From Kofleriaceae bacterium (GTDB lineage Bacteria; Myxococcota_A; Polyangia; Haliangiales; Haliangiaceae): a stretch of 36,098 nt of DNA. The position numbers were made by a program, and so were the translations under genes. A model generated the notes under the pieces. It was not told the DNA's origin. It was given only the letters and a program-made list of their open reading frames with translations, and did no database searches. Shown here one piece after another: positions 1 to 6,293 of the stretch; position 1 is the first letter of the stretch, and each line of letters starts with the position of its first letter. The DNA is taken from the NCBI GenBank assembly GCA_013368795.1, contig JABFXX010000581.1:1-36098 (forward strand). Reading direction: 5' to 3'.

Positions 1-50
1 CAAGTTGTTGCGCAATTCGTGCAGCAACTTGTGGAACTTGTGTCTGACCC
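1..50. repeat. Inverted and direct repeats at window edge, possible mobile-element border
   Basis: Bases 1-11 and 21-31 form an 11-bp inverted repeat with one G-U type mismatch around a 9-base loop. The octamer AACTTGTG occurs at 26-33 and again at 35-42. Bases 40-50 read GTGTCTGACCC, so on the minus strand GGGTCAGACAC follows directly after the stop codon of the leftmost gene. From memory, GGGTCAGA-type strings occur near REP-associated transposase genes in many genomes. Only this fragment is visible, so the link to a mobile element is a guess. The hairpin could also be a transcription terminator for the leftward operon, but no T-tract is visible inside the window. Confidence 0.35.
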
Positions 51-1057
51 TATTTCGCGAAGAGCGCGCTGTAGTGGCCGAAGCCGATCGCCGCGCCCTG
101 GCGCAGCGATGTCGCGACCTCACCGGCGTACTCGGGGAGCTTGATGAAGATGCGCTCGGGCGCCAGGCCCGCCGCGCGGTAGGCGGTGATGTCGCTGCTG
201 CGGTTGCCGATGCCGGCGATGGCGAAGTCGGCGGCGAGCTCGCCGATGACGCGCTTCTTGTACGCGACGGTCGGCGCGCCGGGGCGCAGCACGAGCGTCG
301 GCGCGAGCCGCACCGGGCCGCGTGGGAAGCCGTGTGTGGCGAGCCAGTGTCGCGTCGCATCGGTGAAGCGCTCGCCGCGCGCGGTCACGTAGACGACCTG
401 GTAGCCGGCGGCGGTCGCGCGCGACAGGGCCTCCGCGGCGCCGGGTTGTGCGCCGACCCGACGGCCGAGGAACACCGCCTTCGCGAACTGGTTCTCGTTC
501 GCGGTCAGCGTGCCGTCGACGTCGGAGACGACGAGCTGCGAGCCGGCGGGGGCGACGTACGCGAGGCAGCGAAATCCGGTGCGATCGCCGACGACCGAGC
601 CGTAGACGTCGCGGAGCCCGATCGGCATCCGCTGCGCGCCCTCGAGGCGGAGCGCGAAGTCGCCGTTATCGTCGGTGCGAGCGGTCCCGGCGAGCTGCCA
701 CGCGCCGGCGACGCAGGTGAAGAGGTCGACGTCCTCGTGCTCGAGCGACTTGTCGGTGAGGCCGTAGGCGAGCGTGCCGCGGAGCACCTGCGGCTCGGAC
801 TGTGTCGCGACGAGGTCGTAGCCGCGATGATCGGCGCGCGCGATCGCGGTGATCATGCCGGAGCGCCAGCTGCGGAAGCCGCGCTTGGGACCGACGGCCG
901 GCGTGCCCGCGCAGCGCACGTCGGGGACGCTGCCGGCGCGCTGGTCGATCGTACCGCCGGACCTCGGCGCGTACGGATCGGTCGCCATGTTGCCCGCACA
1001 CGCGAATGCGCCGACGGCGAGGACCCCGAACACCAGACGACGCATTCGGCGCAGCAT
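50..1057 (-). CDS. Lipoprotein with LNS2/lipin-like HAD phosphatase domain
   Basis: About 335 aa. The N-terminus (MLRRMRRL, then a hydrophobic stretch and AFAC) looks like a lipoprotein signal with Cys20 lipidated, placing it in the periplasm or on a membrane face. A beta-rich middle region (residues about 90-165) resembles a transthyretin/C2-like fold. The C-terminal half is HAD-like: DVDGT at about residues 179-183, then TARGERFTDATRHWL, FPRGPV, a conserved Lys (YKK), and GNRSSDITAY. That series matches the LNS2 domain of lipins and PITP/Nir2 proteins, which in lipins dephosphorylates phosphatidic acid. It is the last gene of the Mla-like transporter operon, 36 bases after the upstream stop. 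Substrate is inferred only. The start is uncertain: ATG at 1057 chosen; ATG at 1045 would leave a shorter signal. Confidence 0.8.
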   Translation of the reverse strand: MLRRMRRLVFGVLAVGAFACAGNMATDPYAPRSGGTIDQRAGSVPDVRCAGTPAVGPKRGFRSWRSGMITAIARADHRGYDLVATQSEPQVLRGTLAYGLTDKSLEHEDVDLFTCVAGAWQLAGTARTDDNGDFALRLEGAQRMPIGLRDVYGSVVGDRTGFRCLAYVAPAGSQLVVSDVDGTLTANENQFAKAVFLGRRVGAQPGAAEALSRATAAGYQVVYVTARGERFTDATRHWLATHGFPRGPVRLAPTLVLRPGAPTVAYKKRVIGELAADFAIAGIGNRSSDITAYRAAGLAPERIFIKLPEYAGEVATSLRQGAAIGFGHYSALFAK

Positions 1058-1093
1058 GACGGCGACCCGCGGTGCCGGCAAGACGAGGAATTC

Positions 1094-1870
1094 TCAGAAG
1101 CCAGGAGTTTCCATCGGTCCCGTGGAGTTGCCGTTGATGAACTGCTGGACCACCGGATCGGGAGACGCGCGGAGCTCGGCGGGCGTTGCCACGACGTGGA
1201 CCTTGCCCTGGTAAAGGAAGGCAACGCGGTCGGCGATGCCGAAGATCGACGGCGGATCGTGTGACACGACGATCGCGGTGACGCCGAGCGTCGTGGCGAG
1301 CTCGCGGATCAGCCGGTCGACCCGGCGCGCGCTGACCGGATCGAGGCCGGTCGTCGGCTCGTCGAACAGCACGACCTCGGGGCCGAGCGCGAGCGTGCGC
1401 GCGATCGCGGCGCGCTTGCGCATGCCGTCGGACAGCTCCGCCGGATAGCGGTCCGCGTACTCCGCCATGTAGACCTGCGCGAGCCGGCGATTCGCCTCCT
1501 CGAGCGCCACCGAGTGCCGCATCGCCTGATGCTTGCGAAGGGGCAGGGCGACGTTCTCGGCGAGCGTCATCGAGTCGAACAGCGTCGAGCTCTGGAACAC
1601 CATGCCGATGCGCTTGCGCAGTGGCGCGAGGTTGCGTTCGGGAATCTGATCGATGCGCGTGCCGTCGAACCAGATCTCGCCGGCATCGATGCGGAGCAGG
1701 CCGATCAGGTGCTTGATCGTCACCGACTTGCCGACGCCCGACGTGCCGATGATGAACATCACCTCGCCCTTGTTCACGGCGAGGTTCATGCCGCGCAGCA
1801 CCGGCTTGCCGCCGAACGCCTTCTGGACGTCCTTGAACTCGATGTACGCGCTCTCCGGTGGCGCCTTCAC
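1094..1870 (-). CDS. mlaF: MlaF-type ABC transporter ATPase 2 (degenerate signature motif)
   Basis: 258 aa, cytoplasmic ATPase of a phospholipid-type ABC importer/exporter (MlaF/Ttg2A family). Walker A GTSGVGKS (residues 42-49) is canonical, Q-loop Gln93, Walker B VVLFDEP with Glu171, D-loop GLDP and the H-loop His204 (VSHD) are all present. The signature motif reads LSDGM at 146-150 instead of LSGGM, an Asp at a normally invariant Gly. The C-terminal DPVVQQFINGNSTGP tail is typical of MlaF proteins. GTG start at 1870, chosen because it overlaps the stop of the upstream permease by four bases (GTGA) and has GGGGAG just upstream; no ATG precedes the domain. It is paired with ATPase 1 at 3458-4234, whose signature is intact but whose own nucleotide-site residues are altered. 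Confidence 0.93.
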   Translation of the reverse strand: MKAPPESAYIEFKDVQKAFGGKPVLRGMNLAVNKGEVMFIIGTSGVGKSVTIKHLIGLLRIDAGEIWFDGTRIDQIPERNLAPLRKRIGMVFQSSTLFDSMTLAENVALPLRKHQAMRHSVALEEANRRLAQVYMAEYADRYPAELSDGMRKRAAIARTLALGPEVVLFDEPTTGLDPVSARRVDRLIRELATTLGVTAIVVSHDPPSIFGIADRVAFLYQGKVHVVATPAELRASPDPVVQQFINGNSTGPMETPGF

Positions 1871-2688
1871 AAATCTCCCCCCGTGAGGAACAGCGCGGCT
1901 GCCGAGAGCACGAAGTCGAGGACGATCACCGAGAAGCTCGAGCCGATGACCGCGGCGGTCGTCGCCCAGCCGACGCCCTCGGAGCTGCCGCGCGCGCGGA
2001 GGCCGCAGAACCCGGCGACGACCGGAATCGCCGCGCCGTAGGCGATCGCCTTGACGACCATGAGGATGAGGTGGCGCGGCCGGATCAGCGTGAGGTCGAA
2101 GAAGAGGTTCGGGTTGACGCCGAACGAGTACTGCGCGGTGAGGCCGCCGGCGCCGTACATGATCGCGCCGCCGAGCGTCGACAGCATCAGCGTCATGATG
2201 ATGCAGGCGATGAAGCGAGGGACGATCAGGTAGTCGATCGGCAACACGCCGCTCATGCGAAGCGCGTCGATCTGTTCGGTGACCTTCATCGACCCGATCT
2301 CGGCGGCGATGCCGGCGCCGACGCGCGTCGCGAGCATCAGCGCGGTCAGCGTCGGTCCGAAGTCGGAGACGATCAGCCGGATGAACTGCGTGCCGAGCTG
2401 CGAGTAGTCGCCGGTGACGCGCGACAGCTGCAGACACGCCTCGTACGACATCACCATGCCGATGAAGCCGAGCGTGACGATGATGAAGATGAGCGACTTG
2501 TTGCCGATGAAGTAGAGCTGGCGCGTGATCTCGCCCTTGGGCCGGCCTCGGCCGCCCGCCTTGCGCGAGAGCCCTCGGATGATGCCGGCGATCGTCGACA
2601 CGTAGACGAGCCACAGCTCGATCGCGGCGCGGCTGGCGTCGACGACGACGCCACCGAGGTGCTCGATGCGTGAGGTGATCGCCTTCAT
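1867..2688 (-). CDS. mlaE: MlaE-type lipid ABC transporter permease 2
   Basis: 273 aa integral inner-membrane permease of the MlaE/YrbE/Ttg2B family. An amphipathic N-terminal region is followed by about five to six hydrophobic segments. The family signature is visible as DFGPTLTALMLATRVG, AAEIGSMKVTEQIDALR and DYLIVPRF. ATG at 2688 overlaps the TGA of permease 1 by four bases (ATGA), which fixes the start and implies translational coupling. Its sequence is clearly different from permease 1, so the channel is probably a heterodimer, as for YrbE A/B pairs in actinobacterial Mce systems. The partner MCE substrate-binding protein expected for Mla or Mce systems is not in the window. Confidence 0.93.
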   Translation of the reverse strand: MKAITSRIEHLGGVVVDASRAAIELWLVYVSTIAGIIRGLSRKAGGRGRPKGEITRQLYFIGNKSLIFIIVTLGFIGMVMSYEACLQLSRVTGDYSQLGTQFIRLIVSDFGPTLTALMLATRVGAGIAAEIGSMKVTEQIDALRMSGVLPIDYLIVPRFIACIIMTLMLSTLGGAIMYGAGGLTAQYSFGVNPNLFFDLTLIRPRHLILMVVKAIAYGAAIPVVAGFCGLRARGSSEGVGWATTAAVIGSSFSVIVLDFVLSAAALFLTGGDL

Positions 2689-3461
2689 CCGGTTGTATAG
2701 GTGATGAAGAAGTCGAGCAGCATGATCGTGACGGCAGCCGCGACGACTGCAGCGTTCACCGCCTTGCCGACGCCGACCGCACCGCCGCGCACGGTGACGC
2801 CGAAGTAGCAGCTCGACACCGCGATCGCCGCGCCGAACGCGATCGACTTGTAGATGCCGTGCAAGAAGTCGTACGGCTTCAGGTTGTCGGCGAACGAGTA
2901 GTACATCGTCGCCCAGTCGATATCGAGCATCGCGCGGCCGACGACCGACGCGCCGAGCAGCGACACGAGGTCGCCGATGATGGTGAGCGCGACGAGCATC
3001 ACGATCATCGCGACCACGCGCGGCACGACGAGGAATCTCACCGGATCGATCGCGAGCGCGCGCAAACCGTCGAGCTGCTCGGTCACGGTCATCGTGCCGA
3101 GCTCCGCCGTGTTGTTCGCGCCGACGCGGCCCGAGAACATGAGCGCGATCAGGATCGGACCGATCTCGCGCAGCACGGCGTAGCCCGCGCCCCAGCCGGC
3201 GAGCGACGTCGCGCCGAGCTTCTTCACGAACGGACCGGTCTGCAGCGTCATCAGGCCGCCCGCGAAGAACGCGGTGAGCACGATGATGGGCACCGAGCGG
3301 TTGCCCATCTTGTAGAGGTTCTTCATCAGCTCGCGCCAGTCGAGGCGCGGCGGGAACAGCGCGCGAATGACCTGCGCGGTGAGCACGATGATGCCGCCGA
3401 CCTCCTCGGCGACGCGGATCGCACCTGCGCCGATGCCGGCGAGCGCCCGCTCCCCGATCAT
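2685..3461 (-). CDS. mlaE: MlaE-type lipid ABC transporter permease 1
   Basis: 258 aa, second MlaE-family permease. The diagnostic block is very clear: [27 protein letters not shown], then [24 protein letters not shown] (each quoted piece is part of a continuous region near residues 98-150). About five hydrophobic segments follow, ending in [14 protein letters not shown] at 3461 overlaps the TGA of ATPase 1 by four bases (ATGA), so the start is well supported. This permease retains the consensus GRVGA and AELGTM elements more faithfully than permease 2. It presumably transports phospholipid between the inner membrane and the periplasm together with its neighbours; direction cannot be told from sequence. 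Confidence 0.94.
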
Positions 3462-4234
3462 GCCTCCGCCTCCTGCGTCTTCTCCTTGGACAGCGGGCCT
3501 TCGAGGTCGCCGCGCACGAACTGGCGGACGATCGGATCGGGCGCATCGGCGACGGTCGCGGCGGGGCCCCGATAGAGGATCTTGCCCTCGTAGAGGAACG
3601 CGATCTCGTCGACGAACTTGGCGAGCGCCACGACGTCGGACGATACCGCGAGCACGGTCGCTCCGGTCCGCGCCTGGTCCTCGGCGAGCAGGTCGTAGAT
3701 TTTTTGCGTCGTCACCGGATCGAGGCCCGCGGTCGGCTCGTCGTAGATCACGATCTCGGCGTCGGCGACCGTCGCGCGGGCGATGCCGACTCGCTTCTTC
3801 ATACCGCCCGACAGCTCGCCGGTCAGCTTGTGCTCGCTGCCCGCGAGGCCGACGGCGCGCAGCCTCGTCTCGACGCGCTTCGCGATGTCGTCGGCCGCGA
3901 AGCCACCGCGCTGCTCGAGCGGGAACGCGACGTTGCCCTTCACGTCGAGGAAGTCGAACAGCGCGTAGTTCTGGAACAGCATGCCGATGCGCTGGCGTAG
4001 ATCGCCGAGCTGCACCTCTCGCTTGCCGACGACGCTCTCGCCGAGCACGTCGATGTCGCCGCGATCGGGGTGATCGAGGCCGCACACGAGCTTCAGGATG
4101 ACGCTCTTGCCCGACGCCGCCGGGCCGATCAGGCCGAGCTTCGCGCCCTTGGCGACCTCGAGCGTGATACCGGACAGCACCTCGCGGCGGCCGAACCGCT
4201 TGTGCACGTCGCGCAGGCTGATCGCTACGGACAT
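3458..4234 (-). CDS. mlaF: MlaF-type ABC transporter ATPase 1 (altered Walker A and H-loop)
   Basis: 258 aa. Q-loop Gln88, signature LSGGM (141-145), Walker B IVIYDEP with Glu166 and D-loop GLDP are canonical. Walker A reads GPAASGKS (37-44), with Ala40 in place of the second Gly of GxxGxGKS. The H-loop reads VSSD, so Ser199 replaces the switch His. I confirmed the Ser codon (TCC) on the nucleotide sequence. The C-terminal [15 protein letters not shown] matches the MlaF tail. Together with ATPase 2 (intact Walker A and His, altered signature) these changes fall in one composite ATP site of a heterodimer. ATG at 4234 overlaps the TPR lipoprotein gene by 10 bases. It could still be an active enzyme; only biochemistry would tell. 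Confidence 0.93.
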
Positions 4235-5262
4235 TTGAGCTCCGCGGCGATGTCGCCCGTGCGCTCGATGTACTTCGAGTCCGGCGACTGCTTCTTCAGC
4301 GCGGCGATCGCGCGGCACGCGCCCGCGGCGTCGTGCGCCTTGTCGTAGGTGACCGCGAGCTCGTACAGCGCATCGTCCTTCAGGATCGACGCCGGGTAGT
4401 CCTTCGGCAGCTGGCGGAACGCCGCGATCGCGCTCGGCAGGTCGCCGAGGTCGTCGCGGAAGATCTTGCCGATCAGGAGCTGCGCGTCGTCGAGCCAGAT
4501 CGAGAAGTAGCTGCCGGGGCCGAGCGCGACCTCGCGCGTCGCCAGCAGCTTGCGCAGCCGATCGACCGCGCCCTGCGAGTCGCCGAGCTCGCGCGACAGG
4601 CGCGCCGCGTGCCAGCGCGCATCGTCGCGAAAGCCGCTGCTCGGCCAGTCGACCGGAATGCGGTCGTAGAGCGCGCGCGCCGCCTGCTTGTTGCCGAGCT
4701 CGTGCTCGGTGAGGTCGGCGAGCCACCACACGAGGTTGTCGGCGACGGCCGTGTCGGAGAGCGGCGTGAGCAGCTTCGCGAGCTGGTCGGCGAGCGCGGC
4801 CGCATCGCGGTGGCGGCCGTCCGCGACGAGCGTCTTGACCGCATCGCCGGCAAGCGGCTCGTCGGGGAAATCGGTGACGACCTTCCACAGCGCGGTCCAC
4901 GCCTCGACGACCTTGCCTTGCCCGAGCAACAGCTCGCCCGCGCGATACAGCGCCGTCGCTGCGGTCGTCGGATCGTCGGGCACGCGCGGTGGGATCGCGA
5001 GATACGTCGCGATCGCCGTGTCGATCCGTCCGCCACGCTCCTGCGCGTCGGCCTCGCCGAGCAGCGCCTCGCCGCACGCCTGCTTTGCGCGGCGCTCGGG
5101 GCGCAGGCGGTGACAGCTCGTCTGCGCTTCGCGATACGCGGCGACCGCGCCGTCGACATCGCCGCCGTCGGCGAGCTTCTCTGCCTTCACGAGCTCGGGC
5201 AACGTCGCCGGCGCGGAGCAGGCGAGAAGTTGCAGCACCGCGAGCAGACGCACCGTACGCAT
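4225..5262 (-). CDS. TPR-repeat lipoprotein
   Basis: 345 aa. A short signal ([15 protein letters not shown]) ends in a good lipobox LLAC, lipidating Cys15. The remainder is helical with repeated tetratricopeptide-like units, e.g. [73 protein letters not shown]. It lies between threonine aldolase and the Mla-type transporter, overlapping both neighbours, and so is probably co-translated with them. A role as the periplasmic partner or scaffold of the transporter is an inference from position. Start: ATG at 5262 shares its A with the TGA of threonine aldolase; a GTG at 5265 directly before it is the alternative. Confidence 0.85.
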
Positions 5263-6293
5263 CACAGCTTCGCGGCGATCTCCGCGATGACCTGCGCGGC
5301 GCGCAGCACGCCTTCGCGATCGACGTCGAGGTGCGTGACCGCACGCACGCGCTGCGGCCCGGCCGCGCCGAGCAGCACGCCATCCTCCTTCGCGAGCTCG
5401 ATCAGCGCGCGCGCGGTGCCGTGGGACAGGTCGATCATGACGATGTTCGTCTGGACCTTCGTCATGTCGATGCGGATGCCCGGCGCGCCGGCGAGCGCCT
5501 CGGCGAGCGCCTTCGCGTTCGCGTGATCCTCGCCGAGCCGCGCGCGGTTGTGGTCGAGCGCGAACAGGCCGGCCGCGGCGAGGATGCCGGCCTGGCGCAT
5601 GCCGCCGCCGTACATCTTGCGGAACCGGTGACAGGACCTGATGAACGGCTTACTGCCCGCGACCACGGAGCCGACGGGCGCGCCGAGGCCCTTCGACAGG
5701 CACACGCTGACCGAGTCGAAGCCGGCGGCGAGCTCGCGCTCCGACACGCCGGTCGCGACCGCGGCGTTCCACAGCCGTGCGCCGTCGAGGTGCGCGACCA
5801 TGCCGAGCTGGTGCGTCGTCTGGACGACGTCGGCGAGCTCCGCGCGGTTCCAGCACGTGCCGCCCGCCATGTTGTGCGTGTTCTCGACCTCGACGACGCG
5901 CGTGTGCGCCTGATACGGATCCTCGGCCTTGTACGCGGCGCGCACGTCGGCGGCCGTGAACATGCCGTCCTGGCCGACGACCTGCGTCTGCACGCCGGCG
6001 AGCGCGGCGAGCGCGCCCGACTCGTGACGCCAGCAGTGCGCGCCGACGCCGATGATCACCTCGTCACCGGGCTTCGTGTGCGAGCGCAGCGCGATCTGGT
6101 TTGCCATCGTGCCGCTCGGCGTGAACAGCGCGGCCTCGAGACCGAGGAGGCCGGCGACGGTCTCCTCGAGGCGGCGGACCGTCGGGTCCTCGCCGTAGAC
6201 GTCATCGGCGACCTCGGCGTTCGCCATCGCGAGCCGCATCGCGGCTGAGGGACGCGTGACGGTATCGCTGCGGAGATCGACGGGCGCTGCCAT
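5262..6293 (-). CDS. ltaE: Low-specificity L-threonine aldolase
   Basis: 343 aa PLP enzyme of the beta-eliminating lyase family; cleaves L-threonine/L-allo-threonine to glycine and acetaldehyde. Family marks are DLRSDTVT at residues 6-13, [32 protein letters not shown] (168-177) and [14 protein letters not shown] with the Schiff-base Lys201. Length is normal for the family. It is the first gene of the lipid-transporter operon: its TGA overlaps the next start. A TAGGCT box at 6305-6300 lies six bases before the ATG and no Shine-Dalgarno sequence is visible, suggesting a nearly leaderless transcript. Why an amino-acid enzyme heads a lipid-transport operon is not apparent. Confidence 0.95.

Follow-up and report, generated by a model that had tools for sequence, protein, structure and literature searches.

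A predicted heterodimeric, one-site MCE lipid transporter with complementary ATPase defects in Myxococcota and Bdellovibrionota

The window analysed here, a stretch of 36,098 nucleotides from a Kofleriaceae bacterium of the Myxococcota (assembly GCA_013368795.1, contig JABFXX010000581.1), carries four overlapping genes on the minus strand, from position 4234 to 1094, in the order ATP1-PER1-PER2-ATP2. With high probability they encode a heterodimeric, one-site MCE lipid transporter, in which a dimer of two different MlaF-like ATPases would lie under two different MlaE-family permeases, with an MCE protein (from one or two genes) on the periplasmic side. When ATP1 and ATP2 are placed in a head-to-tail dimer, every deviation of either protein falls in one composite ATP site, and the other site is consensus. 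The same complementary defects, in the same composite site, were found in 120 of 120 distinct linked ATP1/ATP2 pairs that could be read completely, 35 of them from Bdellovibrionota and 85 from the remaining groups (nearly all Myxococcota). The features that matter for this reading are the following:

3458..4234, minus strand: ATP1, an MlaF-like ATPase of 258 aa with a broken catalytic pair (Glu166 kept, Ser199 for the H-loop His) and an intact LSGGM
4103..4126, minus strand: ATP1 Walker A, GPAASGKS, residues 37-44, with Ala for the fourth-position Gly and GK[ST] kept
3800..3814, minus strand: ATP1 signature, LSGGM, residues 141-145, consensus
3638..3640, minus strand: ATP1 H-loop codon, Ser199 for His, within VSSD
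2685..3461, minus strand: PER1, an MlaE-family permease (PF02405, 227.2 bits)
1867..2688, minus strand: PER2, a second, divergent MlaE-family permease (PF02405, 184.9 bits)
1094..1870, minus strand: ATP2, an MlaF-like ATPase of 258 aa with a GTG start and an altered signature, otherwise consensus in Walker A, Glu171 and His204
1421..1435, minus strand: ATP2 signature, LSDGM, residues 146-150, with Gly replaced by Asp148 at position 3

Neighbouring genes overlap by 4 bases each, at 3458-3461, 2685-2688 and 1867-1870. The Walker B region of ATP1 reads DEP, with Glu166 present, and in ATP2 the Walker A is GTSGVGKS (residues 42-49), followed by a DEP with Glu171 and a VSHD with His204. The four genes, their four-base overlaps, their order and the Walker A, signature and H-loop motifs had been described in the original prediction, which placed all the changes in one composite site and raised the question of whether they co-occur across Myxococcota genomes. 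The description stands in the window, the composite-site claim extends to all the linked pairs, and the co-occurrence holds in Myxococcota and also in Bdellovibrionota. Relatives with substitutions at random, or gathered in the same ATPase, were sought, and no exception appeared among 120 pairs or, at the defining positions, among 154 ATP1 rows and 141 ATP2 rows.

A detailed view of the rows shows how the two kinds of defect are shared out. The Walker B Glu and the H-loop His stand together in 0/154 ATP1 rows; this catalytic pair takes six residue combinations (Walker B/H-loop: Glu/Ser in 77 rows, Glu/Thr in 1, Glu/Asn in 3, Asp/His in 39, Asp/Asn in 31 and Asp/Ser in 3) and is intact in none of them. 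Loss of one or both residues is thus confined to one nucleotide-binding domain (NBD), being seen in 154/154 ATP1 and 0/141 ATP2 rows, and an altered signature is confined to the opposite one, with a residue other than Gly at position 3 in 141/141 ATP2 rows and 0/154 ATP1 rows (Gly-3 kept in all 154). In ATP2 that position is Asp in 96 rows, Tyr in 35, Pro in 7, Phe in 2, Ser in 1 and Gly in none, the Pro replacing Asp in L118, L121, L122, L131, L190, L192, L193 and L199 (GPS, APS, GPP or GPG; L numbers denote loci read). The Walker A Gly, the Glu and the His of ATP2 are intact in all 141 rows. Over 27 aligned rows, the ATP-contacting residues Gly42, Lys43, Gln88 and Asp165 of ATP1 are invariant, and so is its signature Ser-Gly-Gly. 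By comparison, among 45 rows from other MlaF-type ATPases (a set that includes a few stray ABC rows), 42 match the consensus at all four positions; the exceptions are L080, with Ala in Walker A, L304, with Ala in the signature, and L258, in which no motifs are recognisable. Since every one of the 120 pairs is complementary and nearly all the comparison rows are consensus, the complementarity is far from chance. The Ala in Walker A, which occurs in just 74/154 ATP1 rows, was rejected as a core feature: it is lineage-specific, and what stays constant is the broken Glu/His pair in ATP1 together with the altered signature in ATP2. From the list of ATP1 defects first proposed, the H-loop change therefore persists as part of the constant broken pair, and the Walker A Gly-to-Ala change does not survive as a general feature.

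In these counts, the ATP1 and ATP2 labels follow the best hidden Markov model score, with one best domain taken per open frame. For two near-tied rows, L316 (at 4430) and L320 (at 4225), the position of the gene decided a manual assignment to ATP1, and any locus that lacked the four-part set was moved manually to the comparison set. Row counts leave out sequences below 215 aa, rows identical to another, rows that contain X, loci numbered before L038, and the unrelated ABC rows L179 (at 9351), L187 (at 8), L128 (at 6) and L220 (at 993). The pair count leaves out loci without either ATPase, loci with a motif gap (L045, L046, L090 and L166) and duplicates. Removal of near-copies (>99.5% alike) gives 154, 140 and 45 rows for ATP1, ATP2 and the comparison set, still with 120 pairs. 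The groups are Bdellovibrionota against all the rest, which includes one Oligoflexales record (L193); the Myxococcota label comes from named records.

Both permeases pass the curated cut-off of PF02405 (22.5 bits), and sequence comparison thus places the four genes in the broad family of MlaFE/MCE-type lipid ABC (ATP-binding cassette) transporters; from this family membership lipid would be the cargo. Both ATPases are plain ABC_tran under general Pfam models. Their best NCBIfam match is the MlaF equivalog NF008809, with 157 bits for ATP1 and 199.9 for ATP2, far below its cut-off of 441, and their best sequence matches in the PDB are MceG and MlaF for ATP1 and MlaF for ATP2. The predicted ATP1 model (mean predicted local distance difference test, pLDDT, 95.1) has a complete MlaF fold, and its best solved matches are MlaF (6xbd, 6xgy) and MceG (8fed), with a template modelling score (TM) of 0.92 and 35% identity to Escherichia coli MlaF, 6xbd chain I. 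A strict MlaFEDB has a single ATPase gene, whose product forms a homodimer, and two equivalent sites; here there are two ATPase genes, complementary in every linked pair.

The MCE-domain partner is found through neighbouring genes in relatives and a second contig of the same genome. One or two MCE genes (PF02470) often come after ATP2, within 6 kb in 115/165 ATP2 places (places with duplicates included, not distinct sequences), and some of the 165 stretches end too early for such a gene to appear. No MCE match was obtained on the window's own contig. However, contig C455 of this genome holds two tandem MCE genes, whose homologues adjoin ATP2 in loci of the same genus, e.g., L042 and L041. Because its last 95 bases, beside a palindromic repeat, match positions 49-143 of the window with 2 mismatches (the contigs were compared, not joined), C455 very probably adjoins the left end of the window, and the MCE genes most likely lie just beyond that edge. 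The repeat itself is a long palindrome with GGTCAGACACAA arms, seen at L083 8980-9052 and at window 1-55, and it coincides with the C455/C400 contig break.

The distribution of the system was followed by several surveys. In the genome of the window and 35 relatives, ATP1 matches at 1e-50 in 32/36 genomes, and the loci mostly agree with the window in gene order and in how the defects are divided. In this first set the H-loop residue is Ser in every ATP1 row (29 labelled rows and L065), and 27/27 ATP2 rows combine a signature position 3 other than Gly with a consensus Walker A, their Glu and His being consensus wherever they fall inside the stretch read; among its other MlaF-type rows, Ala occurs in the Walker A of L070 and Glu in the signature of L075, the remainder being consensus at these positions. 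Over 378 genomes of the window's phylum, PER2 matches 222 at 1e-30 and about 181 strongly (a count by eye, 222 minus 41 with a best E between 1e-31 and 1e-36), a strong PER2 match alone not establishing the four-part set. Of the 41 weaker genomes, 18 were searched for MlaE; no four-part set was seen in the stretches read from 14 of these 18 and in two more from another genome. Sixty further stretches were read from genomes of the phylum, two of them being own-genome MCE contigs without a permease match. In other families of this phylum, the Walker B Glu of ATP1 is replaced by Asp (DDP) and the H-loop His is retained.

A PER2-based scan of genome contigs gave at least 80 loci, most of them Myxococcota-type records, including Sorangium cellulosum So0157-2, and the rest from Bdellovibrionales and from Verrucomicrobia and a few more, these latter with single consensus ATPases. 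The Bdellovibrionales loci have the order ATP1-ATP2-PER1-PER2-MCE, or parts of it, and alter this composite site by yet another, third set of substitutions: DDP and TND in ATP1 (Glu to Asp, His to Asn) and SYG in the signature of ATP2. In this line, ATP1 was found in 56/240 Bdellovibrionota genomes at 1e-65, and thirty stretches from these were read. The genes can also be scattered. Sorangium cellulosum So0157-2 and four genomes belonging to the class of the window have a PER1-PER2-ATP2-MCE block with ATP1 at least 150 kb away or on a different contig, and this distant ATP1 is retained with the same motifs. When ATP2 was sought in 14 genomes, 11 of them without ATP2 in their first stretch, it was present in 14/14, with Asp at signature position 3.

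The ancestry of the four subunits points in the same direction. In a tree of 77 ATPase rows with the four motif columns removed, ATP1 forms one clade (97/89) and ATP2 another (98/96), each across Myxococcota and Bdellovibrionota, and ordinary MlaF rows fall between them. The permease tree likewise has one PER1 clade (99/96) and one PER2 clade (99/93), both covering the two phyla; L200, a Bdellovibrionales locus initially filed as other, falls inside the PER2 clade. This tree leaves out the own-genome single permeases L076-L082 as well as L258-L261 and L268, and the second permease of L311 was relabelled. Because each subunit forms one supported clade across both phyla, the four-part engine would be old, and its simplest reading is that of one engine inherited vertically or exchanged as a unit. 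On a 147-row tree the minimum number of changes, counted without direction, is 1 for the broken pair, at least 4 for Walker B, at least 4 for the H-loop and at least 6 for the letter in the ATP2 signature.

How such a motor might work can be sketched from better known ABC transporters. An intact Glu/His pair is described as necessary for efficient hydrolysis, and ABCB1 ceases to transport when only its catalytic Glu is lost and regains function with all four ABCB11-like residues, including the signature Gly1178 change (PMC7544095). In TM287/288, nucleotide at the degenerate site stabilises the NBD contacts (PMC5216877), and in TAP hydrolysis takes place at the consensus site as ATP remains in the degenerate one (PMC12422388). 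In our system, site A would be formed by the Walker A and B and the H-loop of ATP1 with the signature of ATP2, and site B by the Walker A, Walker B and His of ATP2 with the LSGG of ATP1. Since site A keeps what ATP binding needs, and has neither a complete Glu/His pair nor a normal signature, ATP would be bound there and hydrolysed little or not at all, whereas the consensus site B would carry out hydrolysis. Each cycle would then burn about one ATP at site B, as expected from the behaviour of TM287/288 and TAP, while the ATP in site A would keep the two ATPases joined and lipid would pass between MCE assembly and inner membrane. Assembly of the heterodimer and non-hydrolysis at site A are what we infer from sequence data, in which linkage, co-retention in scattered genomes and matching clades are observed for ATP1 and ATP2; these three support the asymmetric heterodimer originally proposed.

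We consider it slightly better than an even bet that this is an ancient asymmetric MlaE/MCE branch, which predates Myxococcota and Bdellovibrionota or was exchanged between them, with a one-site motor whose degenerate site is actively maintained, one ATP spent per lipid stroke and a pump never fully resetting like Mla. Within that reading, the turnover of single catalytic residues of ATP1 in a pair that is never whole would reflect selection against a second hydrolytic site.

Several points weigh against a heterodimeric, one-site motor, or narrow what can be claimed for it. The Walker A Ala is absent from 39/39 Bdellovibrionota rows, and Glu and His are both lost in L195, L310, L314 and most Bdellovibrionota, which rules out a strict either/or loss of the two residues. 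Seven rows of the comparison set, whose loci lack the four-part set, have their best score with the ATP1 model; six of these are consensus, and none of the four included in the tree groups within the ATP1 clade. Some Bdellovibrionota (L314, L317 and L318) have ATP1-like copies with no recognised neighbours. Moreover, weak hydrolysis could persist where Asp in Walker B is the sole change. The co-occurrence of the defects rests on one old origin followed by long conservation, and an independent-pairs test (Glu/Asp versus His) had 3 usable pairs and no power. None of these proteins is known to us from a solved structure, a pull-down or an ATPase assay.

Three other explanations have to be weighed against the asymmetric heterodimer. 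The operon might encode two separate homodimeric transporters, ATP1 working with one permease and ATP2 with the other, given that each ATPase and each permease is a full-length family member and that MlaF and MceG are described as acting in pairs of one gene product (PMC7790496, PMC10517005). Since ATP1 is without an intact Glu/His pair and ATP2 without a normal signature, however, an ATP1 pair would have two sites lacking the Glu/His pair, an ATP2 pair two sites with altered signatures, and neither homodimer a complete site; ATP1 and ATP2 are moreover conserved together across two phyla and are both retained in those scattered genomes that were checked, all of which leaves this arrangement very improbable. 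The idea that ATP1 is a pseudo-ATPase in the process of disappearing, or serves as a regulatory subunit and not as a motor half, is given a marginally lower weight: its catalytic residues are lost and the gene is unlinked in several lineages, but its signature Gly-3 is intact in every row, its ATP-binding residues are invariant where aligned, this signature is exactly the part that would serve the site of ATP2, and the unlinked copies (Sorangium cellulosum So0157-2 and the four genomes) are still kept. It could finally be argued that the MlaF branch tolerates motif variation and that the complementarity is accidental, as rare odd residues occur in other MlaF-type ATPases of these genomes (a Walker A Ala in L070 and L080, a signature Ala in L304, a signature Glu in the second NBD of L075, and L258 without Walker A). 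This retains next to no credence and is already refuted at the sequence level by the contrast between the uniform complementarity of the pairs and the almost uniform consensus of the comparison rows.

The heterodimeric transporter resembles several known systems in part. MlaFEDB is a complex MlaF2E2D6B2 of four genes, with two copies of one ATPase (PMC7790496). Like this complex in Escherichia coli, Acinetobacter and Pseudomonas, the present transporter has MlaE-family permeases, an MlaF-type ATPase fold and an MCE-domain partner, and unlike it, two different ATPases, two different permeases and one degenerate site; nor was an MlaB-like STAS protein found among six window proteins scanned. In the mycobacterial Mce1, two permeases go with one ATPase, MceG being thought to serve as the NBDs (PMC10517005); the heterodimeric MlaE-family permease and the MCE proteins of Mce1/Mce4 (YrbEA/YrbEB-MceG) are therefore shared, whereas in the present system the two ATPases also differ from each other and form an asymmetric pair. 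The operons L253-L256, from other families of the phylum, also have two tandem MlaE permeases and an MCE gene, but a single consensus MlaF-type ATPase, and their permeases form a separate clade.

In regard to the ATP sites, the closest likeness is with TM287/288, TAP and ABCB11, where non-consensus residues gather in one composite site: TM287/288 has Asp in Walker B and a signature that deviates (PMC5216877), and ABCB11 has lost the catalytic Glu and has a signature changed at the position of ABCB1 Gly1178 (PMC7544095). What sets the present system apart is that its asymmetry stands on MlaE-type permeases with MCE proteins, and that its catalytic pair is found in six residue combinations. The degenerate-site exporters named have a different membrane fold, and CFTR and BmrCD are further ABC transporters with one degenerate site. 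Degenerate-site heterodimers are thus known in exporters; in the open-licence literature of PubMed Central, no report was found of a heterodimeric or degenerate-site ATPase pair for MlaF/MceG-type transporters, nor of this combination on an MlaE/MCE chassis, which agrees with the original prediction that the arrangement was not known for the MlaEF family.

Degenerate ATP sites in ABC transporters have long been puzzling, and most work on them concerns exporters with another fold. The same arrangement now appears on a lipid-transporting MlaE/MCE chassis. This envelope transporter is widespread among predatory and social bacteria, and its more than one hundred natural pairs differ in the residues by which the site is broken. 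These amount to a natural experiment: if the second site were merely dispensable, the pair should sometimes be whole, and in the rows read it never is. The number of ATPs that MCE transporters need per lipid could also be addressed with this system, since only one site should burn fuel.

Upstream of ATP1 lies one more probable member of the operon:

4225..5265, minus strand: TPR-repeat protein, YbgF/BamD-like, overlapping the start of ATP1 by 10 bases

This protein may be an envelope partner of the transporter. A homologue (phmmer, 1e-10) stands directly upstream of ATP1 in 55/173 ATP1 places (again places with duplicates), 0 of them in Bdellovibrionota, and with no support outside some loci of the window's phylum it was rejected as a general part of the system. 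At the other end, an LNS2/PITM-like protein (50-1081, minus strand; PF24694, PF08235 and PF24695) sits between ATP2 and the probable MCE pair; no homologue was found at 1e-10 in the relatives' loci examined, and it was likewise set aside as a system part. The LNS2-type domain is best known from eukaryotic lipid proteins.

Two further arrangements were seen among the relatives. In L258 (genome G032, contig C374), an MlaE permease adjoins an ABC-like protein without a recognisable Walker A. In L304/L305 (G015, C726) and L075 (G017, C10), two MlaF-like NBDs are fused in tandem in one open frame, the first being consensus and the second having ISAGQ or VSEGQ as signature with its Glu/His pair intact; judged by these motifs, the fused protein is possibly another asymmetric pair.

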